Shown: positions 4,871-60,626 of the stretch, piece after piece
Numbering within the stretch: position 1 is the first letter of the stretch
How the letters are laid out: the number at the start of each line of letters is the position of its first letter
Source of the DNA: a bacterium
GTDB taxonomy: Bacteria > ARS69
DNA length: 64,000 nt
Direction of reading: 5' to 3'
Assembly (NCBI GenBank): GCA_025774805.1
Contig: JALGZR010000010.1
Location: 1 to 64,000 of the forward strand
Translations under genes and position numbers: made by a program
Notes under the pieces: model-generated
Databases searched by the model: none
What the model was told of the DNA's origin: nothing
The model's input: the letters and a program-made list of their open reading frames with translations, nothing else

Positions 4871-5045
4871 GCATTTCTCACCAGGCTCGTCGCGAGGCTG
4901 CGGATAGTCGTGTCTGGCGAGGAGATGGGGAGCTTGCGCCCGAGGCGGGGCTGTAGCCCCGTCGCAGGGCGGAAGTTCCCCAACGACGAAGCCAGGCGCG
5001 GCTTCGCCGCTGCCGCAGCAGAGACTGGTGAGAAATGCGGGCTAG
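4871..5045. repeat. Long copy of the dispersed palindromic repeat (arms about 140 bases apart)
   Basis: The left arm GCATTTCTCACCAG at 4871-4884 is the exact reverse complement of CTGGTGAGAAATGC at 5025-5038; the right arm continues into GGGCTAG. Inside, CTGCGG near 4898 pairs with CCGCAG near 5014, so the whole 175-base unit could fold as one long imperfect stem. No transposase is nearby. It looks like a non-autonomous MITE-like or REP-like element, but no target duplication was established. Confidence 0.7.
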
Positions 5046-5139
5046 GCCGGCTCCACCGGCGGGACATCGCTTCCCGGATCGCTCAATGGCTCCGGATTCA
5101 GGGCTCTCCCCTCCGTCCCCATCCGCCATCCGTCTCGGC

Positions 5140-5169
5140 TTGTTTCGCCGCGCGTCCGCGCAGTACGAT
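5140..5169 (+). promoter_or_regulatory. Putative sigma70-type promoter
   Basis: TTGTTT at 5140-5145 and TACGAT at 5164-5169 are separated by 18 bases, 41 bases before the ATG at 5211. The -35 match is weak, so this is a suggestion based on spacing and position. Confidence 0.35.
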
Positions 5170-5210
5170 TCCTGGCGACGACAACAACCGTGCTACGAAG
5201 AGGACCCGTC

Positions 5211-6884
5211 ATGAAGAGAAGTATCCGTCTGGTCGTGATCGCATCGCCGATATTCGCATCGTTGATCGTTCCGCGAGCGCCGAGAGCGAGTGACGTCCTC
5301 CACCCGAGCGCGCAGAGCGAGTTCGGTCCGACACCCCTTCCCCTCGTTTTGGAGCCCGCTCTCGGCGATCCGGAGGTCGAGAAAGCCGAGCTCGCGTCCG
5401 GGGGAAGCCGCGACGGGACGATCCTCTGGCACCGTCATTTCGAAGATCCCATCTACACCTCGACGGGAGTCAGCCGAACCACGGCGCTCGTTCTCGCCGG
5501 GACGTATCTCAACCCCCCGCAGCAGGTCGAGGCGACCCCATTGTCCGGCGACGGCACTCCCGACTGGACCTCGCCCGGTACCGAGTTCTTTGTGGACGCG
5601 TCCCGGGGCGGCAGCGTGCTCGCGGCCGTGGACTTCACCACCCAAGACTCGACGGCCGTCATCAGCCAGTGGGGGCCCGGATCCGCCAGACCGCTCTGGA
5701 GCTACCGGGTCCACCCCTGCCGCTCGATGGTCTATCAGGGGTGGGCCAGTCGCAAACCGATCCAGGTCTCGGACGACGGCTCCACCATCGCCGTCGCCTT
5801 GGTCATGTGGACCCAAGAGGGGCAGCGGGGTCGCCTCCATGTCTTCGACGCGGGGAACGGTACCCCCGTGGTCGAGTACGATCTGCCCACCGGAAACGTC
5901 GTCGCCACGGCCATCTCTTCCTCCGGCGACTACGTGGCGATGGCGGGGTGGCCCAACATCTACGTGTACGACCGCTCCGGGCTGAGCTTGCGCTGGAGCG
6001 GGCCCATCGGCAGCGGCAACGACGCCCTGGCCATCTCCGGCGACGGCCGTTATGTCGCGTGGGGTTGGACCACCTTCCACCTGCGTGAATGGACGGGAGT
6101 ATCCTACACGCCGCTCTGGACCCATACGCCGGGAGGAGGCACCTATGTCGGCCAGTGCGCCCTGGATACGGCCGGCAACACCCTTGCCGTATCCTGGGAC
6201 AATGGCAACGTCACTCCCAACGAGATCAGCCTCGATCTCTACGAGCTGCCCTCGCTGAACCGGCTCTGGCGGTACGAGTACCTGGGCACACCGGCGAGCA
6301 CTCACGTGGACATCGCTTCGCAGATGGACTTCTCGCCGGACGGCCAGCGTCTGGCGGTCGGCTCCTGGGGCGGCAGCTTCCCGGAGATTCACGTCTTCGC
6401 CCGCACGGATTCCATCCCTCTTTACACGCTGGACACTCCCGGCTCGATATTCGACGTCGACATCGTCTCGACTCCGGACGGCGGCAGTCACGTGTCCGCC
6501 TGCGGCAAGGGCGTGCACGCCGGCCAGTCGGGACGCGGCGGTGACCTCTACGCGATCGAGATTCCCGGCGACGCCACGGGTGTCGAACCGCGACCGCGGG
6601 GACCGGATGCCGTGGCCCTCCAAACCGGCCATCCGAATCCGTTCCGCGCCGACACGGAGATCCGCTTCACCTTGGAGAACCCGGGGCCCGTGCGGCTGAC
6701 CGTCTACGATGCCCGCGGCCGTCTCGTGCAGGACCTGGTGAACGGTCTGGTGGATGCCGGCGAGCAGGTCATCACCTGGCGAGGGCGCAACGCGGCCGGC
6801 GACCCCGTTGCCTCGGGCATCTACTTCTACCGGCTGGAGACGGAGAGCGCGGTGAAGAGTCGGAAGGTGCTCGTGCTCCGGTGA
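5211..6884 (+). CDS. Secreted beta-propeller (WD40/PQQ-like) protein with FlgD-like C-terminal module
   Basis: 557 aa from ATG 5211 (AGAGGA seven bases upstream); an in-frame GTG at 5190 would add seven residues before the signal peptide and is less likely. The signal peptide is about residues 1-27. The body repeats blades of the type ALDTAGNTLAVSWDNG, AISGDGRYVAWGW and MDFSPDGQRLAVGSWGG, as in WD40/quinoprotein propellers. The last 85 residues are a FlgD-like Ig module beginning near HPNPFRADTEIRF and ending GIYFYR...VLVLR, which in FCB bacteria is typically found on exported proteins. No catalytic residues were recognised; a binding or scaffold role is possible. Confidence 0.8.
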   Translation: MKRSIRLVVIASPIFASLIVPRAPRASDVLHPSAQSEFGPTPLPLVLEPALGDPEVEKAELASGGSRDGTILWHRHFEDPIYTSTGVSRTTALVLAGTYLNPPQQVEATPLSGDGTPDWTSPGTEFFVDASRGGSVLAAVDFTTQDSTAVISQWGPGSARPLWSYRVHPCRSMVYQGWASRKPIQVSDDGSTIAVALVMWTQEGQRGRLHVFDAGNGTPVVEYDLPTGNVVATAISSSGDYVAMAGWPNIYVYDRSGLSLRWSGPIGSGNDALAISGDGRYVAWGWTTFHLREWTGVSYTPLWTHTPGGGTYVGQCALDTAGNTLAVSWDNGNVTPNEISLDLYELPSLNRLWRYEYLGTPASTHVDIASQMDFSPDGQRLAVGSWGGSFPEIHVFARTDSIPLYTLDTPGSIFDVDIVSTPDGGSHVSACGKGVHAGQSGRGGDLYAIEIPGDATGVEPRPRGPDAVALQTGHPNPFRADTEIRFTLENPGPVRLTVYDARGRLVQDLVNGLVDAGEQVITWRGRNAAGDPVASGIYFYRLETESAVKSRKVLVLR

Positions 6885-6902
6885 GCGCGACCGCGGCGAC
6901 CG

Positions 6903-7802
6903 TCACTCTCCACCGAGAGATCGGAAGACCATCTCCGTGAACATCTCGGGTGAGAAGTGCACTCTCCCCCACTTCTCATCGAGGGTCGCCGTGGGCGTCG
7001 CGGCCTGAATCGAGGCGAGATCCTTACCCGCGGCCATCTCCTCGGCGATGACGGCACGGAACCGTCTCAGCATCGCGACATAATCCGCGAGGCCCGTCCG
7101 GTCGGAGAGCGGCCCATGGCCCGGGACGATCTTCGTATCCTCATCACACTGCAGAAGCACCGTCTCGATCGCCGCGATCATACCGTCGATGCTTCCCTCC
7201 GCCGAAACATCGATGAACGGGTAGCCTCCCTCGAAAACGATATCGCCCATGTGAAGGACGTTCGCGCGTCTGAAATGGACGATCAAGTCTCCGTCGGAGT
7301 GAGCGGGGGACGGATGGAAGGCGACGATCTCCTCGTCGTTGATATGAAAGGTCAGCGAGTCCCGGACGGTGATCACCGGGAGCGCCTCCGGAGGGGAGGC
7401 CGGAACATCGACCTCGATGATCGCGATGTGTTGTGGGGTGGCCATCCGAGTCCGAACCCTCTCGTGGGCCACGATCCGGCTTCCCCCTCCGGCGAAGTCC
7501 GCGTTCCCTCCGGTGTGGTCGAAGTGCCAGTGGGTATTCACGATGAACGCGATCGGCTCACGAGAGATCTCCGCGATCGCCCGTCGGACCTTGTCCGTCA
7601 GCTCGGCATATTCCGAATCGACGAGGAGCACCCCGTCCTTCCCGGCGCAGACGGCAAGGTTTCCACCCGCCCTCGAGGCCAACATGTACACGTTCCCGCT
7701 CAAGTGCAGGGTCTCGATCCGGATGTCATCGAATCCCTGGCCCGGCAGCGGATTCGGCACCAGAAGCGCGACGAGCAGGAGGGGAATTTGCAGTCGGATC
7801 AT
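6903..7802 (-). CDS. Secreted metallo-beta-lactamase-fold hydrolase
   Basis: 299 aa. ATG at 7802 is preceded by GGAGAGGAG; a longer frame upstream is open but lacks support. The N-terminus is a signal peptide (IPLLLVALLVPNPLPGQG). The metal-binding motif HWHFDHTGGN is present, then HSDGD, GDIVFEGGYPF and the later His of PGHGPLS, covering the usual MBL motifs 2-5. It resembles cyclase/quinoprotein-relay-type MBL proteins rather than true lactamases. It lies 18 bases from, and convergent with, the propeller gene. Substrate is unknown. Confidence 0.85.
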   Translation of the reverse strand: MIRLQIPLLLVALLVPNPLPGQGFDDIRIETLHLSGNVYMLASRAGGNLAVCAGKDGVLLVDSEYAELTDKVRRAIAEISREPIAFIVNTHWHFDHTGGNADFAGGGSRIVAHERVRTRMATPQHIAIIEVDVPASPPEALPVITVRDSLTFHINDEEIVAFHPSPAHSDGDLIVHFRRANVLHMGDIVFEGGYPFIDVSAEGSIDGMIAAIETVLLQCDEDTKIVPGHGPLSDRTGLADYVAMLRRFRAVIAEEMAAGKDLASIQAATPTATLDEKWGRVHFSPEMFTEMVFRSLGGE

Positions 7803-7933
7803 CGCTCCTCTCCATTCGTAGAGTGCGTGGACAGGATATCTCCCGTCCTCCTCGGTCGACCAGGACAAAGGATGCACGAGTGATCGCGTAGGCGGCCGAC
7901 TTCGACGCGTGTCGATCCCCTGGCGAGATCCCC

Positions 7934-8992
7934 CTACCCCAAACAGACGAACTTCTCCCCCTCCCGATAACCCATCTCCTCCATCGCGGCTCGGATCTCG
8001 GCGCGCGCGCCCTTGATGCCGACGACCGCGACCACGAGGCAGCCCGGCTCTTCGGCCAGGCTCTCGGGGGAGAGGACCTCGACCCCCAGCATGCGGCGGC
8101 CGACCTTCGTCGGCGCGATGTCGACGAGGTGACGGAGGCGCGCGCCTCGTCGCCGGAGCGCCTTCGCCGCCCGCTTCCCGTCCCTCCCCGCTCCCCACAC
8201 GATCACCTCGCGGCCGCCCAGCCCGTAAGCGGCGACGAGGTGCTCGGCCTTGCACTCGAGAAACGCTCGTCCCGCGTAGCGCGGGTCCGTCTTCGTGAGC
8301 CGCCCCGCGTGATCGCGGATCTGCGTCAGGACCTCCGCCCGCTTCGCGAAGCGCCAGCCCGCGCGCCAGCCGCGCAGCCAGAGATCGTAGTCCTCGGGGT
8401 ATTCCACGTCCCGGTAGCCCCCGACGCCTCGGATCGACTCGGTCCGGATCGTCACCGACGGATGGGGCAGCGGGGACTCGATGAAAAGGTCGCGAACGAT
8501 CTCCTCATGGGTGAGGGTGGCGTTCAGCCACCCCTCGTAGTGCCGCAGATTCGAGGAGACGCGATCCCCGAAGAACCGGACGCGGCTGGAGATCACGTCG
8601 GTCTCCGGGTGCCGCCGCATCGTCTCGACCTGGAGGGCGAGGCGCGCCGGCTCCATTCGATCGTCCCCGTCGATGCGGGCCACGAGAGGGGCGGTCGCGA
8701 GATCGAGACCCCGGTTGAGGGTCGCGACGAGCCCTCGCGCCGGTCCCTCCACCGGTACGAACCGGGAGTCCTCCGCCGCCAGCCCCCGAACCAGGTCGAG
8801 GGACCCGTCCGCCGAGCCGTCGTCGAGGACGAGACATCGGAAGTCAGTCAGGGTCTGGCCTCGGATCGACTCCAGCGCCTCCGCGAGCGTCGCGGCGGCG
8901 TCCCGAACCGGCAGAAGGACGTCGACCGCCGCTCCGAAAGCGGCTGATCCCGCAGCGTCGGATTCACGGGCATCGGACCTGGGAGCGGTCAT
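7934..8992 (-). CDS. Family 2 glycosyltransferase with C-terminal Rossmann-like extension
   Basis: 352 aa. ATG 8992 has GGGAGGAGGG seven bases upstream; the frame stays open much further 5' through the neighbouring receptor gene and that part is a shadow. The GT-A core starts near residue 22 (VDVLLPVRDAAATLAEALES), with the DDGSADGS turn, the D-G-D metal motif in ARIDGDDRMEPARL, and YPEDYDLWLRGW as the acceptor/catalytic region. After about residue 260 comes a separate segment opening VIVWGAGRDGKRAAKALRRRG, which looks like a nucleotide-binding glycine loop. The role is probably in surface glycan synthesis, but no glycan cluster is adjacent. Confidence 0.85.
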   Translation of the reverse strand: MTAPRSDARESDAAGSAAFGAAVDVLLPVRDAAATLAEALESIRGQTLTDFRCLVLDDGSADGSLDLVRGLAAEDSRFVPVEGPARGLVATLNRGLDLATAPLVARIDGDDRMEPARLALQVETMRRHPETDVISSRVRFFGDRVSSNLRHYEGWLNATLTHEEIVRDLFIESPLPHPSVTIRTESIRGVGGYRDVEYPEDYDLWLRGWRAGWRFAKRAEVLTQIRDHAGRLTKTDPRYAGRAFLECKAEHLVAAYGLGGREVIVWGAGRDGKRAAKALRRRGARLRHLVDIAPTKVGRRMLGVEVLSPESLAEEPGCLVVAVVGIKGARAEIRAAMEEMGYREGEKFVCLG

Positions 8993-9133
8993 GGGGCCCT
9001 CCTCCCGGCCGACCGGTAGCGGCCCGCAGGGCGGATCGTCAAGGGGGGAGCCGCCTTGGCCGACGAGAGGGGAGACGGATTGGACGGCCGCCGGCATGCC
9101 AACGGCCACCACGCCGCCCCGAGGACCCGCTCC

Positions 9134-11527: not shown

Positions 11528-11545
11528 TCGAGCGAGGCCGGCGGG

Positions 11546-12523: not shown

Positions 12524-12693
12524 AGTCGTAACAGACTACCACGACCCGCCGTATGGGGGATACACGACGGACGATCTGCCGGAACGGTCCGCTGCTTCCG
12601 GTGTTCAGTCCAAAAGGAAAGATCGTTGCACGCATTCCACAGGAGACTGCTTTTCTTTACGAGCACTCTGCTCGCATCGCAGCTATGATGCCG

Positions 12694-12760
12694 CCCTGCG
12701 AGCCGCAGGGTGTCGTGAAGGAGCCGTTCCTCCGGGGTGCGAACCTTCGGAGTGAGGAAC
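12694..12760 (+). promoter_or_regulatory. Two consecutive hairpins ahead of signal peptidase I
   Basis: CCCTGCG (12694-12700) and CGCAGGG (12704-12710) form a perfect 7-bp stem with loop AGC. GTTCCTC (12726-12732) pairs with GAGGAAC (12754-12760), ending nine bases before the GAGGAGG ribosome site. They could act as leader or attenuator structures for the gene starting at 12780. No poly-T follows either stem. Confidence 0.4.
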
Positions 12761-12779
12761 AGGGCACGAGGAGGTCCAC

Positions 12780-13340: not shown

Positions 13341-13346
13341 CCCGGA

Positions 13347-13428
13347 CTAGCCTGCGTTCCTCACCGGACTCTGAGGCAGCTGCGGCTCGCCGCGCCTCGC
13401 GACGAATCTGGTGAGAAACGCGGACCGG
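13347..13428. repeat. Paired copy of the dispersed palindromic repeat, about 80 bases
   Basis: The left arm CTAGCCTGCGTTCCTCACCG begins 7 bases after the lepB stop. The right arm CTGGTGAGAAACGCGG lies at 13408-13423. GCGTT..CTCACC pairs with GGTGAGAAACGC. The sequence between is GC-rich and partly self-complementary. It sits between lepB and the convergent small acidic ORF, so it may also act as a transcript-end structure. Confidence 0.65.
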
Positions 13429-13461
13429 AAGGACGAATACCGGTCGCCCCCGCCGCCGCGA

Positions 13462-15900: not shown

Positions 15901-15933
15901 GGCGGAAAGGGGAAAGCGGGGCGAGTCGCGTGC

Positions 15934-16833: not shown

Positions 16834-16843
16834 ATCGAAGTAG

Positions 16844-18449: not shown

Positions 18450-19298
18450 GTGCCCCCCGTCGTTCCGTTCGCCGTCGTCCTCGGAACCGTCCAAGACGGG
18501 GGCTTCCCCCACGTCGGGTGCGCCTGCCCCGCCTGCGAGCGGGCGACCCGCGAGCCGTCTCTCCGCCGGAGCGTCGCGAGCCTCGGCCTCGTGACCCGGA
18601 AGGGCATCGCGGTGATCGACGCGACGCCCGACTTCGCGTCCCAAACCCGGCGACTGGCCGAGCTCGCGGGCCGATCGGTGGCGGATCCGCCGCGGGCCCT
18701 GCTCCTCACCCACCTGCACGCCGGACACGTCCTGGGCCTGGCGCTGATGGGACGGGAGGCATGGGCGAACACGGGAACTCCGGTTTGGGCGACGGAGAAG
18801 TGCCTCGCGTTTCTCCAGCGGAACGAGCCGTTCGCGGCGCTCTTCCGCGACGGTCATCTCTCCGGGCGAGCCCTCCCCCTCGGGTGGGACGCCTCTCTGG
18901 ACGACCTCGTGATCCAGCCGATCCCGGTTCACCACCGCAGCGAGAACGGCGACACCGTCGGCTACCGCGTGGAGGGGCCGGAGAGATCGATCTTCTATGC
19001 TCCCGACCTCGATTCCGTGACTCCGGACGTGATCGGACAGATCCGCGCGGCGGATATCGCGATCCTCGACGGAACCTTCTTTCGGAGAGGAGAGCTCTCG
19101 CGAACCGACGCGAGCGCCGTGCCCCACCCCGCGATCGCCGACACGATGAGCGCCGTCTCCCGCATCGACACGAAGGTGCTCTTCACCCATCTCAATCACA
19201 CGAATCCCGGTCTCGATCCCGATTCGCGGGAGAGCCGCGCGATCCGAGCCGTGGGGATGCGGGTTGCGCGGGAAGGCGAGGTGATCGAGCTCGGGTAG
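18450..19298 (+). CDS. PqqB-like metallo-beta-lactamase-fold protein
   Basis: 282 aa. GTG 18450 with GGGAGAG upstream. The N-terminus LGTVQDGGFPHVGCACPACE matches PqqB-type proteins, including a Cys cluster (CACPAC). The first metal motif is THLHAGHVLGL, where canonical MBL H-x-H-x-D-H has Ala for Asp, as is tolerated in PqqB-like proteins. FYAPDLDSV and FTHLNHTNPGLD close the fold. No pqqA, pqqC, pqqD or pqqE is nearby, so this may be a stand-alone PqqB paralogue rather than a PQQ-biosynthesis enzyme. Confidence 0.82.
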   Translation: MPPVVPFAVVLGTVQDGGFPHVGCACPACERATREPSLRRSVASLGLVTRKGIAVIDATPDFASQTRRLAELAGRSVADPPRALLLTHLHAGHVLGLALMGREAWANTGTPVWATEKCLAFLQRNEPFAALFRDGHLSGRALPLGWDASLDDLVIQPIPVHHRSENGDTVGYRVEGPERSIFYAPDLDSVTPDVIGQIRAADIAILDGTFFRRGELSRTDASAVPHPAIADTMSAVSRIDTKVLFTHLNHTNPGLDPDSRESRAIRAVGMRVAREGEVIELG

Positions 19299-19301
19299 CC
19301 G

Positions 19302-19369
19302 GTGCTCCTCACCGGCCTCTGCCCCGACCGCGACGGACCACGGCGAGCCCGGGGAAAGACGCAGGCTAG
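19302..19369. repeat. Degenerate paired copy of the dispersed palindromic repeat
   Basis: GTGCTCCTCACCGGCCTC at 19302-19319 and AGCCCGGGGAAAGACGCAGG with CTAG ending at 19369 correspond to the two arms of the repeat, here diverged. It fills the gap between convergent genes, and its CTAG carries the stop codon of the minus-strand gene. Confidence 0.5.
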
Positions 19370-19980
19370 CGAACCATCGAGATCCCGACGGAGACCCCGG
19401 AGACGAAATCGGAAGTCGTCGGCAGATCGTCCCCGAGCCCGAGCGCGGCGTAGTCCTCTTCGTCCTCGTTGAGGTAGAGGTACTCCCCACGGTATTCCAC
19501 GTTCAGGTGGTACGTGTTCAGGAAGTCGAGGCCGAGACCCTCCAAGGAGACCTTGACGCCGATGCCCGCCCTCGCCGACGCGTCGAAGCTCGATTCCAAG
19601 CGCCGGTCGGGCGGAGTGATGCGCGCCCCTCCCCCCCCGATCAGGAGGTACATGTTCCGGGATTGGGCCCCCAGATTCGGAAACCACAGGATCTGGAGGG
19701 CCCCGCCGTAGCCCTTGGGGGCTCTCCTCCCGAGCGGCCACACCCGGGTCTCCCCCAGAAGCTGGAGCTCGACTCCCTCGACCACGAACATCCCCAGCCT
19801 CAGCTCGGGCTGCGCGCTGAACGGCCCGTCGTAGAGCTCGGGCAGGGAGGTCGCCGAGGCGCCGATCTGGATCTCCCGGCTTCCGGCGACGACCGGAAAG
19901 GACTGGGCTTGGGCCTCGCCGCCGGCGAGGAGAAGAGCGGGGGCCAAAAGGACTACGCCGGCCCGGCGCATGGAAGTCAT
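19366..19980 (-). CDS. Exported beta-barrel-like protein
   Basis: 204 aa. ATG 19980 has a strong AGGAGG seven bases upstream. Signal peptide about residues 1-26 (VVLLAPALLLAGGEAQAQ). The mature part is made of alternating strands with aromatic ends (LRLGMFVVEGVELQLLGET, MYLLIGGGGARI, VEYRGEYLYLNEDEEDY) and ends SVGISMVR, compatible with a small outer-membrane barrel. No family is identified. Confidence 0.65.
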   Translation of the reverse strand: MTSMRRAGVVLLAPALLLAGGEAQAQSFPVVAGSREIQIGASATSLPELYDGPFSAQPELRLGMFVVEGVELQLLGETRVWPLGRRAPKGYGGALQILWFPNLGAQSRNMYLLIGGGGARITPPDRRLESSFDASARAGIGVKVSLEGLGLDFLNTYHLNVEYRGEYLYLNEDEEDYAALGLGDDLPTTSDFVSGVSVGISMVR

Positions 19981-24204: not shown

Positions 24205-24347
24205 ATCACACCCCCGGTGTTCGGTGGACGAAAATGGCCTCGCCGACGTTTCCGGCCCATTGTACCGGCCTGTCCGCGGAACGGGGAGTCTTTCCTGGCC
24301 TCGACCCGCACTGTTCGTGAAAGGCCGTCGCGAGATCGTGGAGACGG

Positions 24348-24438
24348 CCACCGGACGGGCACCCGCAGGGGCTCGAACCCGAGGCGTATCTGAATGATAC
24401 GTCGCAGGGTGCGAGGGGCGAGGACGCCCGTCCGGTGG
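24348..24438. other. 91-nt highly structured element (possible non-coding or leader RNA)
   Basis: CCACCGGACGGGC at 24348-24360 is the perfect reverse complement of GCCCGTCCGGTGG at 24426-24438, a 13-bp terminal helix. Inside are CTCG-AACC-CGAG (24372-24383), CGTATC-TGAAT-GATACG (24385-24401) and an ACCC/GGGT pairing (24361-24364 with 24407-24410), giving a multi-branched fold. On the minus strand it could lie in the aminotransferase leader; on the plus strand it is upstream of the promoter of the next gene. It is not a convincing tRNA: the T-arm-like GGTTCGAGCC lacks a full stem and D arm. Confidence 0.5.
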
Positions 24439-24535
24439 TGCGTTTCCGCGGTCGCAGCAGGTCGTTCACGAATAGTCCGGGTCAAGAGGAACCTGACGGG
24501 AGTTCCGCGGGTACAGCAACCGAGAGCGGGTCCGG

Positions 24536-29215: not shown

Positions 29216-30997
29216 ATGCTCTGCCCCCTGGGTCGATTCGTCGCCTGGAAATCGGGCCTCGCCCTCCTGTGCGCCGCAGTCCTGCTGACCCCCGTCGGCA
29301 ACGCGAGGGCCTCCGCCCCGGCGGACGGGCCGGGCTTCCGCCGGCATCTCGACCGGCTCGTGGACGAGGGCGACCTCAACTACGAGCAGGCTCTCGTCCA
29401 CCGCTTCCAGCGCGTATTCGCACCCGACGACCTTCCCTCCCCCCTGGAGAGCGAGGGGGCCTGGCCGGCGAAGTCGGCGACCCTTCTCGTGCACGAGTTC
29501 GACCGCACGCGGGGGCATCTCACGGTCGCGGCGATCCGCACGATCGAGGGCTATCTGGGACGCGGAGCGTCGAGCGAGGACGCCTCCCTCGAGACCGCCC
29601 ACTTCCGCATCGGATACTCGCTGTCGGGCGCGGACGCCGTTCCCTCGGTGGACGTGTCTCCGGAGAACGGGATCCCCGATCTCGTGGACTGGGTCGGCGA
29701 GCACGCGGAGACGGCGTGGTCCCGCCTCATCGCCGGGATCGGATTCACGCCGCCGGTGCCGGCCGGCCAGCGGGTCCGGATCTCCTTCCGGGAGATGAGC
29801 GCCTTCGGATTCACCCGGATCGTCGGCGACGTTCCCGAGATCATTCTCCATCGCGACTTCAACGGTTTCCCCGAGAACCGGGATCCCGCGGGCTCGCGGC
29901 GCGGGGCGGTGAAGGTGGCGGTCGCCCACGAGCTCAAGCACGCGTCGCAGCACGCCGCGAGCGATTGGACCGAGGGGGGCTGGCTCGAGGCCGACGCGAC
30001 ATGGGCCGAGGACTTCGTCTTCGACGAGGTGGACGACTACCTGCGCTACCTCCCCCTGGGCTCGCCCGTGAGTCACCCCGAGGAGTGGCTGCCCGCCTCG
30101 TACGAGGACTGTCTCTGGAACCACCTCCTGGTCGAGACGCACGGCCCGGGATTGCTCGTCGACTTCTTCGCGCGGCGCGGTGACCACCGGGAGGAAGCGG
30201 TTCTCGAGTCGTTCGATCGGGTCCTGCGGTTCCGTGGCTCGGACCTGCAGACGGCGGCGGCGTCACTCGCGCTCTGGTGCTACTTCACGGGGGCGAACGC
30301 CTCGGGACGACCGGTCGGGTTCCGGGAGGCCGAGCTCTATCCCACCCCTCCGATCTCCTCGGTGCTGGACACGCCCGAGGACACGGACGCGGCGGGTCTG
30401 ATCGGCCTCGGTACCCGGCACGTGGTCGTGAACGGAGCGGGTCGCTCGGGCTCCCCGCAGGTCGAGTTCGTGGGCGAGACCGCGTCCCAGTTCTCCGTGA
30501 GCGCCGTGATCCTCGACCGGGCCGGTCGGCGCATCGTCGTCGAGGTTCCGCAGGGATCCCTCGGGGCCGGGGACCAGCAGCTTCCGGTCGAGTGGGAGTC
30601 GACGGCCCTGCTCGTCGTCTTGGTGAGTCACGTGGAAGCCACCTCGGGCCGGGCGGAGTACTTCCTCACCGTCGACGATCACCACGCCACCGGGGTCGAG
30701 GGGCTGTCTGCCCGGGACCGCTTCCGACTCGACCCGAATCGGCCGAACCCGTTCCGCGTCTCGACGACCATCCCGTTCGAGCTGCCGGTCGAGGGTCCAG
30801 TTCGCCTGACGATCTACGACGTGGGCGGCCGACTCGTGAGACACCTCGTCGACCATCGGACCCTGACGGCGGGACGTCACGAGCTCGTCTGGGAGGGTGT
30901 CGACGACGGCGGTCGCCCCGTCCGGCCGGGCGTCTACTTCTATCGGCTCGAGGCGGATTCGCGCAGCGCCACGCGCCGCCTGCTTCTGCTCCGGTAG
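29216..30997 (+). CDS. Secreted zincin-type metalloprotease with FlgD-like C-terminal module
   Basis: 593 aa from ATG 29216. Signal peptide about 1-31 (SGLALLCAAVLLTPVGNARA). A helical prodomain-like region follows, then FRIGYSLSGADAVPSVDVSP, which opens a catalytic region with the H-E-x-x-H motif in VAVAHELKHASQHAASDWTE and a downstream Glu in GGWLEADATWAED. The C-terminal 85 residues (NRPNPFRVSTTIPFELPVEG to GVYFYRLEAD...LLLLR) form the FlgD-like module. It resembles exported MXAN_6640-type putative metalloproteases. Activity is inferred from motif only. Confidence 0.8.
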   Translation: MLCPLGRFVAWKSGLALLCAAVLLTPVGNARASAPADGPGFRRHLDRLVDEGDLNYEQALVHRFQRVFAPDDLPSPLESEGAWPAKSATLLVHEFDRTRGHLTVAAIRTIEGYLGRGASSEDASLETAHFRIGYSLSGADAVPSVDVSPENGIPDLVDWVGEHAETAWSRLIAGIGFTPPVPAGQRVRISFREMSAFGFTRIVGDVPEIILHRDFNGFPENRDPAGSRRGAVKVAVAHELKHASQHAASDWTEGGWLEADATWAEDFVFDEVDDYLRYLPLGSPVSHPEEWLPASYEDCLWNHLLVETHGPGLLVDFFARRGDHREEAVLESFDRVLRFRGSDLQTAAASLALWCYFTGANASGRPVGFREAELYPTPPISSVLDTPEDTDAAGLIGLGTRHVVVNGAGRSGSPQVEFVGETASQFSVSAVILDRAGRRIVVEVPQGSLGAGDQQLPVEWESTALLVVLVSHVEATSGRAEYFLTVDDHHATGVEGLSARDRFRLDPNRPNPFRVSTTIPFELPVEGPVRLTIYDVGGRLVRHLVDHRTLTAGRHELVWEGVDDGGRPVRPGVYFYRLEADSRSATRRLLLLR

Positions 30998-31057: not shown

Positions 31058-31078
31058 CGCATATCTCACCAGGCTCGG
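31058..31078. repeat. Single arm of the dispersed palindromic repeat
   Basis: GCGCATATCTCACCAGGCTC at 31058-31077 matches the left arm. It lies between convergent genes and touches the stop codon of the minus-strand glycosyltransferase. The right arm is not visible. Confidence 0.5.
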
Positions 31079-35370: not shown

Positions 35371-35396
35371 GGGTGCCGGCCTATCCGCAGCCGCGC

Positions 35397-35424
35397 GACG
35401 AGCCTGGTGAGAAATGCGGGCTAG
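35397..35424. repeat. Right-arm copy of the dispersed palindromic repeat
   Basis: GACGAGCCTGGTGAGAAATG followed by CGGGCTAG, between two convergent genes. The final CTAG provides the stop codon of the minus-strand propeller gene. Confidence 0.65.
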
Positions 35425-37946
35425 TGGGAGACGACGACCCTTCTTTCGTGTTCCTCGCCGCCGGCCTCCAGCCGAAGGAAGTAGACGCCGGCCGCGACCG
35501 CGGATCCTCCATGCCGGAATCTGCTCCACCGTACCGTGTGAACGCCGGCGTCTCGAACGGCGTCGAGAACTCGCCCGACTCGCCGGCCTCCGACATCGTA
35601 GACCGTGATGCGAACGGGACCGCTACGGTCGACCCGGAAGCGGATCGAGGCCTCCGTGGAGACGGGATTCGGCGAAACCGAGAGGATGTCGGTCGTCTCC
35701 TCGATCCGGGCCTCTCGCTCGAAGCCCGGGATGTCCGTTGCGAGCAGGCTCCAGTCGATGCTCTCCCACCGTGCGATGTGAAAGGAGGGAATCGAGCCCG
35801 CCTCGGTGAAATCTCCTGCGACGTACAGCCTGTCGCCGAATTCCCGAACTCCGGTCACGTAGGAGTTGAGACCGCTGCCGAACCCGAACCACTGCCCTCC
35901 CGTCCAGAGAGCCAGATTGTTGACCGGCTGAAAGTCGACCAGATCGAAGTTGCCGCCCACGACCAGCGAGCCGTTCGAGACCGCCAACGCTCCGGCGTCC
36001 GGAGGATTGAAGCTAGTCCCCAGGGACTTCCACGACACGCCGTCCCAGCTAGCGATCCCGCCCGAGTAGACCCCGCCCATCAGGAGAAAGTGACCGGCCG
36101 CCATCAGCTTGTTCGAGTAGACGAGGAGAGCATTGACCCACGCACCGAAGTTGGGATGATCATGAGCCCCCGATCCCACACTTCCCCATTCGGACCCGTT
36201 CCAGCGACCGATGCGATTCAAATCCACGACGCCGGAGGAGTCGAAATACCCTCCCGCGTAGAGCTCACCCTCGAACACCGCGAGTGCGTTCACGGTCCCG
36301 TCCAGGCCGTCGCCCAAGGGGCTCCAGGAGGCCCCGTTCCACTGGGCGATGTTCTGGCACGGAACGCCATCTGCCGCTCCGAACAGACCCCCTGCAACGA
36401 GTCGACCTTCATAGGTCGCGAGTGCTCGGACGGTGAACCCCGTGATCCCCTCACCCAGCGGAAGCACGGTCTCTCCGTCCCATGCCACGATCCGATTCGC
36501 ACTCTCCCCGTTCGCCACCGAGAAGCGGCCTCCCAAGATCAGCTGGTCATCGTGGTAGGCGACCGCCTCGACGTGGTCGTCCAGGGTAACGGGAAACGCC
36601 TCCCAGTCAGCGCCGTTCCAGAGAGCTGCATATCGGAAGTCGTTGTCCCCCGCCTTCGTGAACGAGCCGGCCGCGAGGAGCTCCCCCTCGTAAGTATTGA
36701 AGAGCGCGCCGCGGTTCAGGCCTCGCGCCCGGTCCCAGATCGTCTTCCACTCCTCCTCTTCGGAGAGACGGACGACGTTGTAGACCGGCCTTCCCCCCGG
36801 CGTGTGGAGCGCACCGCCGATCACGATCGACGAGCCTTCGGCCCCGATGGCGTGGACCCGGGCGTCGTTCGGCCGGAGATCACTGCCCAACGGGATCCAG
36901 GTCGAGTCCTGCCAGCGGACGACGGGGCAGTGAGGAGGCCACGGATCGTTCACCAGTTCCACGCCGCCGGCGATCAGCGAACCGGCCGTCGATGAGAGCG
37001 AATACACCACGGCCTGCGCGTAGGTGAAGCCGGGTCCCAGGCTCGACCAGCTCGATCCGTCCCAGGACGCGATTCGGGCCGCTTCCTGACCCCCGATGAT
37101 CGAGAATTCGCCCCCGGCGATCAGCTCGGCCCCGTGAACGGTCAGCGCATGCACTTCCCGATCGGCTCCCCCGCCCAGGTCAAGCCAGGCCGCCCCGTTC
37201 CAGCGCGCGATCCGGGACGCCACCGTCCCTCCCGCCTCGTCGAATCGACCGGCCGCGATGAGATCTCCACCGAAGACCTCGAGATCCAACACCTCATCCG
37301 ACAGACCCTCACCGAGAGGGAGCCAGTCCGAACCGTTCCACCGGGCCACGCGGTTGACCGGCGTCCCTCCCGCCTCGAGGAACCGCCCTCCGATCACCAG
37401 ATCGCCGTCGAGCGTCGTCATGGCGTTCACGTTGTCGTCCGTGCCACCGGCGAGCTCTTCCCAGGCGTCACCGGTCCATCTCGCCACCCGCCTCGCGGCG
37501 TGATCACCGGACATCGTGAATTCCCCTCCCGCGACCAGGTCGCCCGAGAAGACGCCGAGGGAGTGAACGGCGCCGTCGAGACCTGCGCCGAGGGGCTTCC
37601 AGGACTCCCCGTCGAAGCGAGAGACACGGTTCACATCGACCTCGTCGACTTGTTCGAAATTGCCCCCGATCACGATGTCGCCGTCGTAAAAGAGAACCGC
37701 CCGGACGAGGCCGTTCGCCCCGCGGAACGAGGGCAGGATGAACCCGTCCCACCAGTTGTCATTCGGGTCGGGACCGTGATCGGACGGGTCCGGAGGATCC
37801 CGCGGAACGGATCCGTAGGCCGCCGCCAGTGCGGTCGTGTCGGACGGATCGACCTCGGCGGCTACTGGACGGAGATCGAATCCCGAGTGCAGAAGTGCGA
37901 CGAAGAGCAGCGCGAGAAGGAGGACTCGCGGCCGGAAGGGATCCAT
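35421..37946 (-). CDS. Secreted kelch-like multi-repeat propeller protein with FlgD-like module
   Basis: 841 aa. Signal peptide about 1-30 (VLLLALLFVALLHSG). At least twelve units of about 45 residues repeat the pattern G-G-x-F-x-x-A/V-G-G...R-I/V-A-x-W-N/D-G-x-x-W-x-x-L-G-x-G (for example GGRFLEAGGTPVNRVARWNG). This suits one or two beta-propellers. The C-terminal 85 residues are the FlgD-like Ig module (SPNPVSTEASIRFRVD to GVYFLRLE). The ribosome site is weak. Probably a surface or secreted binding protein; no catalytic site seen. Confidence 0.82.
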   Translation of the reverse strand: MDPFRPRVLLLALLFVALLHSGFDLRPVAAEVDPSDTTALAAAYGSVPRDPPDPSDHGPDPNDNWWDGFILPSFRGANGLVRAVLFYDGDIVIGGNFEQVDEVDVNRVSRFDGESWKPLGAGLDGAVHSLGVFSGDLVAGGEFTMSGDHAARRVARWTGDAWEELAGGTDDNVNAMTTLDGDLVIGGRFLEAGGTPVNRVARWNGSDWLPLGEGLSDEVLDLEVFGGDLIAAGRFDEAGGTVASRIARWNGAAWLDLGGGADREVHALTVHGAELIAGGEFSIIGGQEAARIASWDGSSWSSLGPGFTYAQAVVYSLSSTAGSLIAGGVELVNDPWPPHCPVVRWQDSTWIPLGSDLRPNDARVHAIGAEGSSIVIGGALHTPGGRPVYNVVRLSEEEEWKTIWDRARGLNRGALFNTYEGELLAAGSFTKAGDNDFRYAALWNGADWEAFPVTLDDHVEAVAYHDDQLILGGRFSVANGESANRIVAWDGETVLPLGEGITGFTVRALATYEGRLVAGGLFGAADGVPCQNIAQWNGASWSPLGDGLDGTVNALAVFEGELYAGGYFDSSGVVDLNRIGRWNGSEWGSVGSGAHDHPNFGAWVNALLVYSNKLMAAGHFLLMGGVYSGGIASWDGVSWKSLGTSFNPPDAGALAVSNGSLVVGGNFDLVDFQPVNNLALWTGGQWFGFGSGLNSYVTGVREFGDRLYVAGDFTEAGSIPSFHIARWESIDWSLLATDIPGFEREARIEETTDILSVSPNPVSTEASIRFRVDRSGPVRITVYDVGGRRVGRVLDAVRDAGVHTVRWSRFRHGGSAVAAGVYFLRLEAGGEEHERRVVVSH

Positions 37947-37998
37947 CGTCGCCCCCGAGTCAGCCGTCGGACCGGACGGCGAAGCGGCACAACCCTGG

Positions 37999-38048
37999 CC
38001 TGCCTATCTCACCAGCCTCGTCGCGAGGCTGGTGAGAAACGCAGGCTA
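37999..38048. repeat. Most intact copy of the dispersed palindromic repeat
   Basis: TCTCACCAGCCTCG at 38007-38020 and CGAGGCTGGTGAGA at 38024-38037 are perfect 14-bp reverse complements around a TCG loop. The outer CCTGC (38000-38004) pairs with GCAGG (38041-38045) and CTAG follows. The RNA would be a very stable hairpin on either strand. It lies between two minus-strand genes and could end the peptidase transcript, but lacks a T-tract. Confidence 0.8.
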
Positions 38049-38260
38049 GGGGAAGAACCGTCGTCGGCCCGCTATGAGGACCATACCGATTGCTGCCCGC
38101 CGATCCCAGAGAAAACGCGGGTCCCGGCGGACTCTCGAGGAAACACGCGCGGAGGAGCCGGGTCGCTCAATACCCCGCCCGGCTTCCACATCCATCCTGT
38201 TCAAGACCTGAGCGAACTCCAGCGGCGAGAGAGCGAGATCCTATCCCCCTTGTCCTTTCT

Positions 38261-49160: not shown

Positions 49161-49184
49161 GAGTCTCACCAGGCTCGCCGCGAG
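49161..49184. repeat. Partial arm of the dispersed palindromic repeat
   Basis: GAGTCTCACCAGGCTCGCCG then CGAG, matching the left arm and the start of the loop; the right arm has decayed. Lies 93 bases after the glycosylase stop. Confidence 0.5.
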
Positions 49185-51026: not shown

Positions 51027-51037
51027 GAGGCGATGAG

Positions 51038-53835: not shown

Positions 53836-53848
53836 CCCGGCCGGGGTC

Positions 53849-55665: not shown

Positions 55666-55760
55666 CTGCCTTGTCACCCCCCCCTTCGCGGCGTAGCATG
55701 CGTTGCGATCTGTTTTCGAGTTCCATCCGACCGGGGAGCGGGGCTCCCGGGAGACGGCGA

Positions 55761-56456
55761 ATGAATCTGTGGTCGAGAATCTGGAACTCCTCGATCGGGA
55801 TGAAGATGATCATGGGGCTCACCGGCCTCGCGCTCGTCCTTTTCACGATCGTACACATGCTGGGGAACCTGCAGCTCTTCTTGGGGCCCCATGCACTCAA
55901 TCGATACGCGAGCTTCCTTCAGAACCTCGGGGAGCTGCTCTGGCTGATGAGGGGCGGTTTGCTGATCCTCTTCGTGCTCCACGTGATCTGCGCCATCCGT
56001 GTCACGTACCTGAACCGCGTCGCGCGTCCCGTCCGATACCGCCGGGCGGCCCAAGTCCAGCTCGGCCTGGCTCCCCGCACTTTGATCTACACCGGTGTGC
56101 TCGTGTTCATCTTCCTCGGGTACCACCTGGCCCACTTCACGCTGGGCGCGACGGATCCGTCGTTCAAGGAGCTGCACGACTCACTCGGTCGCCACGATGT
56201 CCATTCGATGGTCGCCAAGGGGTTCGGAGATCCTCGGGCCGCCTGGTCTTACATGATCGCCATGATCCTGCTGGGCTATCACCTGAGCCACGGCATTCCG
56301 AATCTCTTCCAATCGGTCGGCTGGAATCATCCGAAGTACCAGCCCGTCCTGAAGCGATGGGGCGCGATTCTCGCGATTCTGATCGTGATCGGGAACATCT
56401 CGATGCCGTTGGCCGTCCAGCTCGGACTGGTCCGGGTCGTCGCGGGAGGTCACTAG
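55761..56456 (+). CDS. sdhC: Succinate dehydrogenase cytochrome b subunit
   Basis: 231 aa membrane anchor, five predicted helices, of the B558-like type found in Bacteroidetes and Bacillus SdhC/FrdC. ATG 55761 has GGGAGA close upstream; an in-frame start at 55671 would add a hydrophilic leader. Haem-ligand histidine candidates lie in [36 protein letters not shown] and [14 protein letters not shown]. Ends one base before sdhA; the C-A-B order supports a menaquinone-linked complex. Confidence 0.93.
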
Positions 56457-56457
56457 C

Positions 56458-58374
56458 ATGAAGCTCGATGCGAAGATCCCGTCCGGGGCCATTGCCGAGA
56501 AGTGGGATCGGCACCGCTTCGAGATGAATTTGGTCAACCCGGCGAACAAGCGGAAGTTCGAAGTGATCGTGGTGGGCTCGGGGCTGGCCGGGGGGTCGGC
56601 CGCCGCGACCCTCGCCGAGCTCGGATACCGCGTGAAGTGCTTCTGTTACCAGGACAGCCCGCGGCGGGCCCACAGCATCGCCGCCCAGGGCGGAATCAAC
56701 GCCGCGAAGAACTACCAGAACGACGGCGACAGCGTCTATCGCCTCTTCTACGACACGGTGAAGGGAGGCGACTTCCGCTCTCGCGAGGCGAACGTCTACC
56801 GGCTCGCCCAGGTGAGCACGAACATCATCGACCAGTGCGTTGCGCAGGGAGTTCCCTTCGCCCGCGAGTACGGCGGACACCTCGCGAACCGCTCCTTCGG
56901 GGGCGCTCAGGTGTCCCGTACGTTCTACGCCCGGGGACAGACGGGGCAGCAGCTCCTCCTCGGAGCCTACTCGGCGCTGAGCCGGCAGATCGGGGCGGGC
57001 GCGGTGGAGATGCACTCCCGCAGCGAGATGCTCGACCTCGTCGTAATCGACGGGCGCGCGCGGGGCATCGTCACGCGCGATCTGATCACCGGCAAGATCG
57101 AGACTCACGTCGCAGACGCGATCGTATTGGGGACGGGTGGATACGGTCCGGTGTTCTTCCTCTCGACGAACGCCAAGGGCTGCAACGTCACCGCAACGTG
57201 GCGCGCGCACAAACGGGGCGCGGGTTTCGCGAATCCCTGCTTCACCCAGATCCACCCCACCTGCATTCCCGTCTCGGGCGAGCACCAGTCCAAGCTCACC
57301 CTGATGTCCGAGTCGCTCCGCAACGACGGGCGCATCTGGGTGTCGAGGAAGCCTGGAGACACTCGTCGCCCGGGAGACATCCCCGAGGGCGAGCGCGACT
57401 ACTTCCTCGAGCGCAAGTATCCGAGCTTCGGCAACCTCGCCCCGCGCGACATCTCCTCGCGCTCCGCGAAGGAGGTCTGCGACGAGGGCCGAGGGGTGGG
57501 CGAAACCGGTCGCGGGGTCTACCTCGATTTCGCCGACGCGATCGAGCGCCTCGGGCGCAGGGTGATCAGCGAGCGCTACGGCAACCTGTTCGACATGTAC
57601 GAGAAGATCACGGGGGAGAATCCCTACGAGGTGCCGATGCGCATCTACCCCGCCTCCCACTACACGATGGGAGGGCTCTGGGTGGACTACAACCTGATGA
57701 GCACCGTGCCCGGTCTCTTCGTGATCGGCGAGGCGAACTTCTCCGACCACGGCGCCAACCGGCTCGGGGCGAGCGCGCTCATGCAGGGGCTCGCGGACGG
57801 CTACTTCGTCCTCCCCTACACGATCGGCAACTATTTCGCCTCGGAGGGAAAGCCCCCGGAGGTGGCGCCCGATCATCCCGAGGCCCGGAAGGTCGTCGAG
57901 GAGGTCCGCAACCGCATCGATCGGCTCCTCGGCGCGAACGGAAGACGCACACCCGATACGTTCCACCGGGAGCTCGGCGAGCTCGTCTGGGAGGATTGCG
58001 GCATGTCCCGCAACGAGGCGGGTCTGAAGAGGGCTCTCGAGCGGATTCCCGAGCTGCGGGCCGAGTACTGGGAAGACGTCAACGTCCTCGGAACGGCGGA
58101 GTCGCTCAACGTCTGCGTCGAGAAGGCGACGCGGGTCGCCGACTTCCTCGAGTTCGCCGAGACGATGTGCCGCGACGCTCTCGAGCGTGACGAATCGTGC
58201 GGAGCCCACTTTCGGGAGGAGCACCAGACCTCCGAGGGCGAGGCGAAGCGGAACGACACCGAGTACGCTCACGTGAGCGTCTGGGAGTACCGGGGAGAGG
58301 ACGAGGCGCCGGTCATGCACAAGGAGCCTCTCACGTTCGAAGAAGTCCGGCTCGCGACGAGGAGTTACAAGTGA
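56458..58374 (+). CDS. sdhA: Succinate dehydrogenase/fumarate reductase flavoprotein subunit
   Basis: 638 aa. FAD-binding [20 protein letters not shown] near residue 36; the covalent-FAD His is in [20 protein letters not shown]. Active-site parts are [10 protein letters not shown], the [10 protein letters not shown] histidine in [10 protein letters not shown], and [20 protein letters not shown]. Full length for the family. Its stop overlaps the sdhB start (TGATG). Confidence 0.96.
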
Positions 58375-59123
58375 TGAACCTGACCCTGAAGGTGTGGCGC
58401 CAGAAGGATGCCCGGGACAAGGGGAGCATCGTCACTTACGAGGTGAAGAAGATCAGCCCGGACTCCTCGTTTCTCGAGATGCTGGACCAGCTCAACGAGG
58501 ACCTCCAGAACCGCGGGGAGGAGCCGATCGCCTTCGACCACGACTGCCGCGAGGGGATCTGCGGCATGTGCTCCCTCGTGATCAACGGAATTCCCCACGG
58601 ACCGGAGCGGGCGACGACGGTCTGTCAGCTTCACATGCGTCACTTCCGCGACGGAGACACCATCTTCATCGAGCCGTGGCGGGCCCGCGCGTTTCCCGTG
58701 ATCCGGGATCTGGTGGTCGACCGGACCGCATTCGACCGGATCTTCCAGGCGGGGGGATACGTCTCCGTGAACACGGGCGGTGCCCCCGACGCCAACGCGG
58801 TGCCGATCGCCAAGGCCGATGCCGACCTGGCCATGGACGCGGCCTCCTGCATCGGGTGCGGGGCCTGCGTCGCCTCCTGCCGGAACGCGTCCGCGATGCT
58901 CTTCGTGGGGGCCAAGATCTCCCAGTTGCGCCACCTGCCCCAGGGGCAGCCCGAGAGAAAGCGGCGGGCCCTCGCCATGGTGGCGCAGATGGACCGTGAG
59001 GGCTTCGGCAACTGCTCGAACCACTACGAGTGCGAAGCGGTGTGTCCCAAGGAGATCAAGCGCGACGTCATCAACGAGCTGAACCAGGACTATCTCGTGG
59101 CGAGTCTCACGGGGAGGGAGTGA
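58374..59123 (+). CDS. sdhB: Succinate dehydrogenase/fumarate reductase iron-sulfur subunit
   Basis: 249 aa. The [2Fe-2S] motif is [20 protein letters not shown] with the later Cys in TTVCQLHM; the [4Fe-4S] and [3Fe-4S] ligands are in [11 protein letters not shown] and [19 protein letters not shown] 58374 is coupled to sdhA; its TGA overlaps the ATG of the next gene, the ArsC/YffB-like selenoprotein candidate. Confidence 0.96.
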
Positions 59124-59464
59124 TGGCCCGGATCCGGATGTACGGAAAGGGCACCTGAGGCACGGTCCGCAAGGCAAGAGGTCTCTTGCGCGAACTGGGG
59201 ATCGAGTACGATTTCCGCGACACCGCGAAGGAGCCGCTGAGCGCGGCGGAGCTGAAGAGGCTCGTCGGGAAGCGCCCGATCGAGGACTTCCTGAACCCGC
59301 GCAGCACCTCCTACCGCAAGATGGGACTGAAGAACCGGAAGATCTCCCGCACCGAGGCGATCCGGCTGATGGTCGAGGACGGCAATTTCATTCGACGGCC
59401 GATCCTGATCTCCGGGTCGCGCGCCGTCTTCGGGTTCGACGACACGGTCTACCGAGAGCTCTAG
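59123..59464 (+). CDS. Probable selenoprotein: ArsC/YffB (Spx-like) family with in-frame UGA at the redox Cys
   Basis: Reading from ATG 59123 (GGGGAGGGAG just upstream, overlapping the sdhB stop) gives [11 protein letters not shown], then TGA at 59156-59158, then GTVRKARGLLRELGIEYDF and an intact ArsC/YffB-like remainder to the stop at 59462-59464, 113 residues in all. Family members have the form Y-G-x-x-x-C-G/D-T-x-x-K-A; the UGA is exactly at that Cys, so Sec12 is proposed. FLNPRSTSYRKMG and FIRRPILISGSRAVFGFDD match conserved family parts. A hairpin at SECIS position follows (59174-59189). A conventional call from TTG 59186 would lose the active site. Alternative: a nonsense mutation. Confidence 0.82.
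59174..59189 (+). promoter_or_regulatory. Bacterial SECIS-like hairpin
   Basis: GCAAG (59174-59178), loop AGGTCT (59179-59184), CTTGC (59185-59189). It begins 15 bases after the UGA and its loop 20 bases after it, within the known bacterial SECIS window, and has G at the second and third loop positions. The loop hexamer equals, to my recollection, that of E. coli fdhF. An alternative 6-bp stem CGCAAG/CTTGCG (59168-59173 with 59185-59190) would expose the same GGTC. Confidence 0.7.
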
Positions 59465-59489
59465 CCCGGACCGGAGTCGAGCGTTGGCA

Positions 59490-59515
59490 GGGATTCTCCC
59501 TTGTGCGAGAATCCC
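59490..59515 (+). terminator. Hairpin after the selenoprotein candidate
   Basis: GGGATTCTC (59490-59498) and GAGAATCCC (59507-59515) form a perfect 9-bp stem with an 8-base loop. There is no downstream T-run, so it may act as a pause, processing site or Rho-assisted end before the CDGSH gene. Confidence 0.4.
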
Positions 59516-59559
59516 CGTCCGGCGCCCGTCCGTCGTGAAGCGTTTGACAGGAGGATGAC

Positions 59560-59793
59560 GTGCCCTACGGGAAGGGACCGTGGGTCGGTCCGGTCGAAGA
59601 GGGAACCAAGGCGTTCTGCGCCTGCGGCGAATCGAGCGACAAGCCGTACTGCGACGGCAGTCACCATCGCCTTGGCACGGGGAAGACGCCGTGCGTCTAC
59701 GAGATCACCGAGAAGAAGAACTATGCCATCTGCCAATGCGGCACGAGCCGGACACCCCCCCTGTGCGACGGCTCCCATAAGACGCTGAGCTGA
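59560..59793 (+). CDS. Double CDGSH iron-sulfur protein
   Basis: 77 aa with two complete CDGSH motifs: Cys20, Cys22, Cys31, His35 (CACGESSDKPYCDGSH) and Cys58, Cys60, Cys69, His73 (CQCGTSRTPPLCDGSH). Each binds a labile [2Fe-2S] cluster with 3Cys-1His ligation, as in mitoNEET/Miner2-type proteins. No membrane anchor is present, so it is cytosolic. GTG 59560 has AGGAGG five bases upstream. Follows sdhCAB and the ArsC-like gene; an electron- or cluster-transfer role is plausible. Confidence 0.93.
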   Translation: MPYGKGPWVGPVEEGTKAFCACGESSDKPYCDGSHHRLGTGKTPCVYEITEKKNYAICQCGTSRTPPLCDGSHKTLS

Positions 59794-59821
59794 GCTCTCC
59801 GTCGGAGGAGGAGAGGCGAGT

Positions 59822-60604
59822 ATGAGCGAAACGCGCGTCCTGGCTTCGGCCGACGGTGCCGTCGGCACCATCACCCTGAATCACCCGAGGACGAACAGCT
59901 ACGATCTCGAGTTCTTGAAGGCCCTGGACATCGCCCTCGACTCGATGATCCGGCAGACGGAGGTGAAGGTGGTCGTCCTCAAGAGCGCGATGGAGAGGTT
60001 CTTTTCGGTCGGCGCCGACATCAACACGCTCCGGTCGCGCACGGCCGCCGGGAACATGAAGCTCATCCGTTTCGGTCACGAGACCCTGGTCAAGATGAGA
60101 TCGTCGTCGAAGATCTTCATCGCCGCCATCGGAGGCCACGCTCTGGGCGGGGGACTCGGAATCGCCCTCTCCTGCGATCTCCGGTTCGCCGGCGACGGCG
60201 ACTACCGGCTCGGCCTTCCTGAGGTCAAGCTCGGGCTCTTTCCGGCCAACGGGGGAACGCAGCGCCTCCCGCGGCTCATCGGCCCGACGAGGGCGCTCGA
60301 CCTGATGATTACGGGCGCCCTGGTGAACCCGCGCGAGGCCCATGAGCTCGGAATGGTGGAACGCCTATTCCCGATGGGCTCACTGCTCGAGGAGACGATG
60401 GCGTACGCCCGCCGGGTCGCGGCCGGCGCTTCGCTGGCGATCGAGCACATCAAGCGGGCCGTCTGCGACGGTTCCGACCTGTCCCTGGACAACGCGCTCG
60501 CGCTGGAACGCGAGCTGTTCGAGCCCCTCCTCGAAACGCAGGATGCCCGGGAGGGAATGGCCGCGTTCGTCGAGAAACGTCCGCCGATCTTCCGGGGACG
60601 CTAG
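59822..60604 (+). CDS. Enoyl-CoA hydratase/isomerase-family (crotonase) protein
   Basis: 260 aa. ATG 59822 with GGAGGAGGAGAGG upstream. The oxyanion-hole segments FFSVGADINTL and IGGHALGGGLGIALSCD and the trimer-contact GGTQRLPRLIG are present. Of the two catalytic glutamates of enoyl-CoA hydratase, the second is kept (Glu134 in LGLPEVKLGLF) but the first is Gly113 in GGGLGIALSC. Hydration is therefore doubtful; isomerase or other crotonase chemistry is more likely. It lies 28 bases after the CDGSH gene, same strand. Confidence 0.9.
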   Translation: MSETRVLASADGAVGTITLNHPRTNSYDLEFLKALDIALDSMIRQTEVKVVVLKSAMERFFSVGADINTLRSRTAAGNMKLIRFGHETLVKMRSSSKIFIAAIGGHALGGGLGIALSCDLRFAGDGDYRLGLPEVKLGLFPANGGTQRLPRLIGPTRALDLMITGALVNPREAHELGMVERLFPMGSLLEETMAYARRVAAGASLAIEHIKRAVCDGSDLSLDNALALERELFEPLLETQDAREGMAAFVEKRPPIFRGR

Positions 60605-60626
60605 CCTGCACTTCTCAGCGGGCTCG
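60601..60626. repeat. Single arm of the dispersed palindromic repeat
   Basis: CTAGCCTGCACTTCTCAGCG then GGCTCG, starting within the crotonase stop codon (TAG at 60602-60604). The opposite arm is not evident before the next gene. Confidence 0.55.

Follow-up and report, generated by a model that had tools for sequence, protein, structure and literature searches.

Enterobacterial ERIC sequences, or intergenic repeat units, are imperfect intergenic palindromes of about 127 bp with no gene inside, and differ from the repeats described here in their sequence, hosts and target and in having no IS1380 ends. Bacterial MITEs are usually viewed as the decayed ends of insertion sequences around a meaningless middle. 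Two that have been described, Chunjie of Geobacter (178-235 bp, with many partial copies; PMC10969869) and the sRNA-producing QMITE1/2 of Coxiella (PMC5896051), are like the present family small, non-coding, bordered by terminal repeats and mostly intergenic, with many deleted copies and a stable hairpin. The present MITEs differ from both in their IS1380 ends and CTAG target, and also in having one core over many phyla with compensatory changes, a feature that is not reported for Chunjie or QMITE1/2 in the texts compared. REPs tagged with GTAG or CGTC and associated with RAYTs are palindromic, intergenic and abundant as well, but they measure 20-40 bp and are tagged at one end, and the GTAG type is tied to Y1 transposases (PMC3733652), which are absent here. 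The insertion sequences of the IS1380 family (NF033539 / PF13701) share with our repeats the terminal repeats CTAG-CCCGCATTTCTCACCAG and CTAG-CCCGGATTATTCATGAA and the CTAG borders, but they are autonomous, about 1.6 kb long, carry a transposase and are without the hairpin core; for one member, IS1247, a 5-bp duplication has been reported (PMC3281130), whereas 4 bp are inferred for these MITEs. Prokaryotic MITEs were reviewed in 2024 with no mention of IS1380, and text searches of the literature, with most subscription papers outside their scope and absence therefore being weak evidence, gave no IS1380 MITE of such a kind and no paper that prints the ends. We describe the family as MITEs, a known kind of element, with IS1380 ends and a folded, conserved core as the new features.

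The stretch of DNA that was analysed, called the window in the following, is the first 64 kb of contig C55 in a 5.1-Mb MAG of 284 contigs. A sequence-only reading of the window had proposed a dispersed palindromic repeat family, and the family is real: CTGGTGAGAAA occurs exactly 104 times in the genome and its reversed control 0 times, the window has 7 occurrences of TTTCTCACCAG with at most one mismatch where 0.5 are expected (0 of 100 shuffles reach 7), and the 17-bp end with at most one mismatch occurs 208 times in 883 kb of sampled DNA from the same genome, against 0 in shuffled DNA. One of the proposed arms, CTAGCCTGC, does not hold by itself, with 14 sites against 7.5 expected and 5 of 100 shuffles reaching 14. 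The scan of the whole genome with a profile, which the reading had called for, was made with a covariance model and gave 121 matches at about 118 places, at least 2 of the matches being the opposite strand of a place already listed. Instead of arms at variable spacing, as had been claimed, there is an element of 182 bp, too short for a transposase gene, together with its internally deleted and truncated derivatives. Taken from the first 30 places, the intact unit is CTAG-CCYGCATWTCTCACCAG ... CTGGTGAGAAAYGCRGG-CTAG, with the 17-bp inverted repeat CCYGCATTTCTCACCAG adjoining CTAG at both ends, and as a whole it is about 70% like its own reverse complement. A consensus search of the genome gave 40 full-length places with 92-98% identity, at the scoring limit of the search. 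Of the 103 paired copies in our catalogue of the 883 kb, 58 measure about 180 bp and 43 measure 50-98 bp; the short forms are internal deletions of the 182-bp unit, and some of them look like deletions between short direct repeats, e.g. GCCTGG. That no copy lies inside a gene was nearly right, the exceptions being 5 of the 103 paired copies which are more than 30% within predicted coding sequence.

Two elements in the window are of full length. The first, 182 bp at 4864-5045 on the plus strand, belongs to family 1 with 95% identity to the consensus (R1 124.9 bits, E 2.5e-26); it has the IS1380-type ends CATTTCTCACCAG, a left tetramer that has decayed to CAAG and a right one that is CTAG, and its orientation is that of the best-folding strand (T1). 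The second, 185 bp at 24301-24485 on the plus strand, is a family 2 element (R2 102.1 bits, E 2.6e-17; R1 E 6.9e-15) with GGACTATTCATGA-type ends and the family 1 core, and aligns to family 2 over positions 5-180; it had been missed, and the earlier list of sites was to that extent incomplete. The paired arms of 4864-5045, already recognised in that list, are confirmed, as are those of two internally deleted copies, one of 82 bp between convergent genes (13347-13428, minus strand; R1 E 1.8e-8, and gene context) and one of 55 bp that is an almost pure terminal-repeat hairpin (37995-38049, strand unassigned; R1 E 4.1e-9). A degenerate short copy at 19295-19369 on the minus strand is supported by R1 (E = 0.006) and by the gene call, its right CTAG (19366-19369) holding the stop codon of the minus-strand gene 19366-19971. 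The sites listed near 35397, 60601, 31058 and 49161 are fragments. At 35381-35424 (minus strand) there is a truncated copy, the terminal 44 bp (local alignment score 39, shuffled maximum 14), and its CTAG (35421-35424) holds the stop codon of the minus-strand gene 35421-37946; at 60601-60626 (plus strand) a terminal fragment (alignment score 18.5 against a shuffled maximum of 14) begins with the CTAG 60601-60604, in which the enoyl-CoA hydratase gene 59822-60604 (Pfam ECH_1) has its stop. The other two, both on the plus strand, are a terminal-repeat fragment at 31059-31077, with one mismatch to the 11-mer and an alignment score of 16.5, and a terminal-repeat and subterminal fragment at 49164-49184, with a score of 18.5. 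Site 569 is not convincing as a copy of the family. The window genes 5349-6884, 29216-30997 and 35421-37946 have C-terminal domains of the FlgD_ig or Por_Secre_tail type, a hint that the host is a relative of the FCB group.

The earlier interpretation was that of a REP/BIME- or MITE-like family, of which the MITE-like half stands and can now be tied to IS1380, and the REP/BIME-like half is given up. We find it likely that the repeats are non-autonomous MITEs whose ends are those of insertion sequences of the IS1380 family, that they are moved by IS1380, and that their folded core is needed for propagation. The family 1 end matches ends that lie next to IS1380 transposase genes (L147, L148, L152, L159 and L166), the transposases being identified by NF033539 with E <= 4e-116. 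Two of these are plasmid copies of IS1380 from Pseudomonas and Bradyrhizobium with CTAG at both ends (L147, L148), a third is an IS1380 with a matching right end in an Eisenbacteria genome that also carries these MITEs (L152, G031), and the others are internally deleted IS1380 copies with family 1-type ends (L159 in G029, L166 in G009). Ends of the same kind belong to an IS1380 copy or remnant in a further MITE-carrying MAG (L168, G012), and for family 2 the matching end is that of the IS1380 copy L155. The IS1380 transposase would act in trans: it would bind the 17-bp terminal repeats and insert the element at CTAG, whereby the tetramer would be duplicated. What we see directly is that the elements share their ends with IS1380, have CTAG sites and a high copy number, lie in non-coding positions and have deletion derivatives; the movement itself we infer, because no intact IS1380 gene is present in this assembly: among its 284 contigs there is no intact IS1380 with CCTGCATTTCTCACCAG ends, and the sole remnant is a 131-codon fragment on contig C17 (L150, G000:C17:1747-2085), near which we found no recognisable ends. 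In the plasmid collection the joined flanks of the Bradyrhizobium IS1380 gave no empty site, and those of the Pseudomonas IS1380 were rejected as one, because what aligned was just the end of an IS30 element. A search of viral contigs for carriers of the element gave no match, and the core had only short, chance-like matches inside genes in plasmids.

That a RAYT (Y1 transposase) mobilises the repeats as a REP/BIME family is extremely unlikely. The family is intergenic and palindromic with more than 100 copies, its short 55-bp forms look REP-like and one strand folds better, but the search for a RAYT that had been suggested found no Y1_Tnp gene in the genome (PF01797, 0 matches), and the same search finds Y1_Tnp in control genomes. 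There is also no hairpin of 20-40 bp with a GTAG or CGTC tag; the unit has 182 bp, the terminal repeats of IS1380 and CTAG borders. For these reasons a RAYT is not the mover, and the reading is refuted for this genome unless a RAYT gene is missing from the assembly.

The IS1380-type MITEs have apparently inserted at CTAG with a 4-bp duplication. CTAG stands at both borders in 42 of the 103 paired copies, most of the others differ by one or two bases, and in four pairs of adjacent copies (C8, C80, C130, C156) the neighbours overlap by exactly one CTAG. For close empty sites of the window genome the comparison covered the five available genomes of its phylum, all from other genera. For L123 the joined flanks are found in one piece, 79% identical, in a related Thiodiazotropha genome (L279), where this diverged empty site has one tetramer-like CTAC and the filled site has CTAG twice; for the copy L101, which is nested inside a 248-bp element, the un-nested copies of that element have a single tetramer. 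As the empty sites are either diverged or nested, the 4-bp duplication is supported short of proof. CTAG is rare in the genome, 0.34 per kb, and stop codons account for 118 of 300 sites in the 883 kb sampled, with genes called by a simple codon-usage caller (85% coding). The border CTAG holds the stop codon of the next gene in 44 of the 103 copies (43%), and the free CTAG sites of the same DNA comprise 47 stops, 59 intergenic sites and 33 sites in genes, i.e. 47 of the 106 non-coding sites are stops (44%); the share of stop codons is what random hits on CTAG would give when insertions within genes are lost. Target choice together with this loss thus accounts for the intergenic habit, and many copies lie at stops because CTAG is rare, is common at stop codons and gives the stop back when an element inserts, which is a simple reason why so many copies adjoin gene ends harmlessly. 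The positions at stop codons and between convergent genes would also suit host sequences, and not mobile DNA, that serve as transcription terminators or promoter elements, a very improbable reading for copies which match a single consensus at 92-98% identity across 182 bp, nest in each other, share the ends of insertion sequences and occur in all gene orientations, divergent ones included. We rejected it as there is no orientation bias: the proposed check of orientation relative to genes showed no preference, with 11 copies in the same and 17 in the opposite direction among tandem genes.

An exact search of genome contigs with the 21-bp end gave at least 115 stretches. Among the matches listed there are MAGs labelled Gamma-, Delta- and Alphaproteobacteria, Acidobacteria and Eisenbacteria, and further Planctomycetes, Nitrospira, Verrucomicrobia, Latescibacterota and others, the labels being those of metagenome bins, of which single cases may be mis-binned. 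From four compared genomes of the same family the 21-mer is absent. Across many phyla this end surrounds at least two unlike cores, and the core of family 1 is found with other ends as well: family 2, with about a dozen or more copies in the genome of the window, has the same core and the end CTAGCCCGGACTATTCATGA, the Eisenbacteria genome G031 has IS1380-type ends of at least two types on the core, and in G058 the 37 core copies have a third variant of such ends. G001, which is of the same family as the window genome and of another genus, has four core copies on unlike basal stems (L301, L303, L305 and L307), besides further partial copies of the core; each copy lies close to a stop codon, and the stems of about 20 bp are almost perfectly paired and not IS1380-like, which counts against the IS1380 explanation.

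The consensus of the window genome folds into a single rod (z -7.4), and so does an element with a different interior from a Delta MAG (z -15.4), the two ends forming the base of a long hairpin. When aligned, ten elements from several phyla (182-186 bp) show conserved internal loops and varying stems, and the asymmetric internal loops that are conserved across phyla are TCGTCGCGAG facing GCAGYAGA and AGGCGUA facing UACGUCGAG. When family 2 and the four G001 copies are added to these ten and the basal stems are left out, 30 of the 39 pairs in the core are changed on both sides, and the covariation is 0.601, against 0.250 +/- 0.019 shuffled and at most 0.174 when slid; for the 248-class, which folds into a terminal stem and a separate hairpin, it is 0.422 against 0.154. 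In the alignments A2, A3 and A4 the covariation exceeds every one of 500 shuffles and lies well clear of the slid controls, and since the structures were drawn from the same alignments in which the changes were counted, and the sequences are related, the shuffle results are not probabilities and the slid controls are the fairer comparison. With stems that covary, and with the G001 core on basal stems unlike the IS1380 ends, the comparison suggests that the structure is constrained beyond the ends alone. It also suggests that the folded form itself may be needed, in which case propagating copies would require the folding of one strand, as a transcript or as single-stranded or cruciform DNA.

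Covariation could, however, also result from the copying of one arm onto the other with no selection, and the family would then be an ordinary MITE with a neutral palindromic interior, whose arms are kept matching by template switching (quasi-palindrome correction). This we hold to be rather unlikely, even if the arms do match within the element (CCTGC with GCAGG, TATCTC with GAGATA), the excess of G.U pairs is not significant, and the young copies in the window genome decay mostly by single changes, 319 unpaired ones against 52 paired double changes. Copying between arms would remove the asymmetric internal loops, yet these are kept across phyla, and the motif is found neither in the IS1380 ends that were examined nor in the 248-class, whose terminal repeats are the same. 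At positions 7/176, 10/173 and 43/140 paired double changes are present in 7-13 copies, and the pattern of changes is the one expected from decay of most copies together with pairing that is kept up in the lineages that propagate, with arm-to-arm copying as the main alternative.

It is not implausible, yet we find it doubtful, that the core is a structured non-coding RNA which acts in trans or at the 3' ends of mRNAs and for which the IS1380 ends are just a vehicle. The covarying helices, in A3 and A4 above every shuffle, agree with this, and so does the core on unrelated basal stems adjoining stop codons in G001; moreover, in all ten families of the approximately 185-bp class and in each of the 58 copies from the window genome, the strand with TCGTCGCGAG at the 5' side has a fold that is 16-36 kcal/mol better than that of the complement. 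An RNA would fit less well with the missing orientation bias, with the lack of any Rfam family at the gathering score (other Rfam matches being weak and chance-like), and with strand-fair counts of G.U versus A.C of 31/22, 41/31 and 27/20, where there is no significant excess. A stronger RNA claim built on the strand folding was dropped, G.U versus A.C being non-significant when pairs are chosen strand-blind. Our claim is that intrastrand pairing is probably selected or maintained, and RNA function is left outside it because much of the strand difference comes from loops that go back to a common ancestor and the G.U count is non-significant. Tentatively, and with somewhat less than even confidence, we suggest that the MITEs carry a conserved structured RNA (or single-stranded DNA) module that is unknown to Rfam and spread over many phyla, with IS1380 ends as its basal stem. 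Its ends would be exchangeable and its internal loops fixed, and because the ends change while the loops stay, the fold could be part of how the module propagates or acts. The middle of these elements, with covarying stems and conserved loops across phyla and end types, makes it testable whether a bacterial MITE depends on a folded strand for its movement, and IS1380 provides a named family of movers.

The class of about 248 bp, which has the same terminal repeats as the class of about 185 bp, is found mainly in Gammaproteobacteria and Acidobacteria. Elements of this class at L064:1910-2229 and L085:6692-7010 contain a further nested palindrome with GGGTGCGCCATGCGCACC, which is another small repeat, and a Thiodiazotropha contig has a TPP riboswitch (Rfam RF00059) at L106:344-449.
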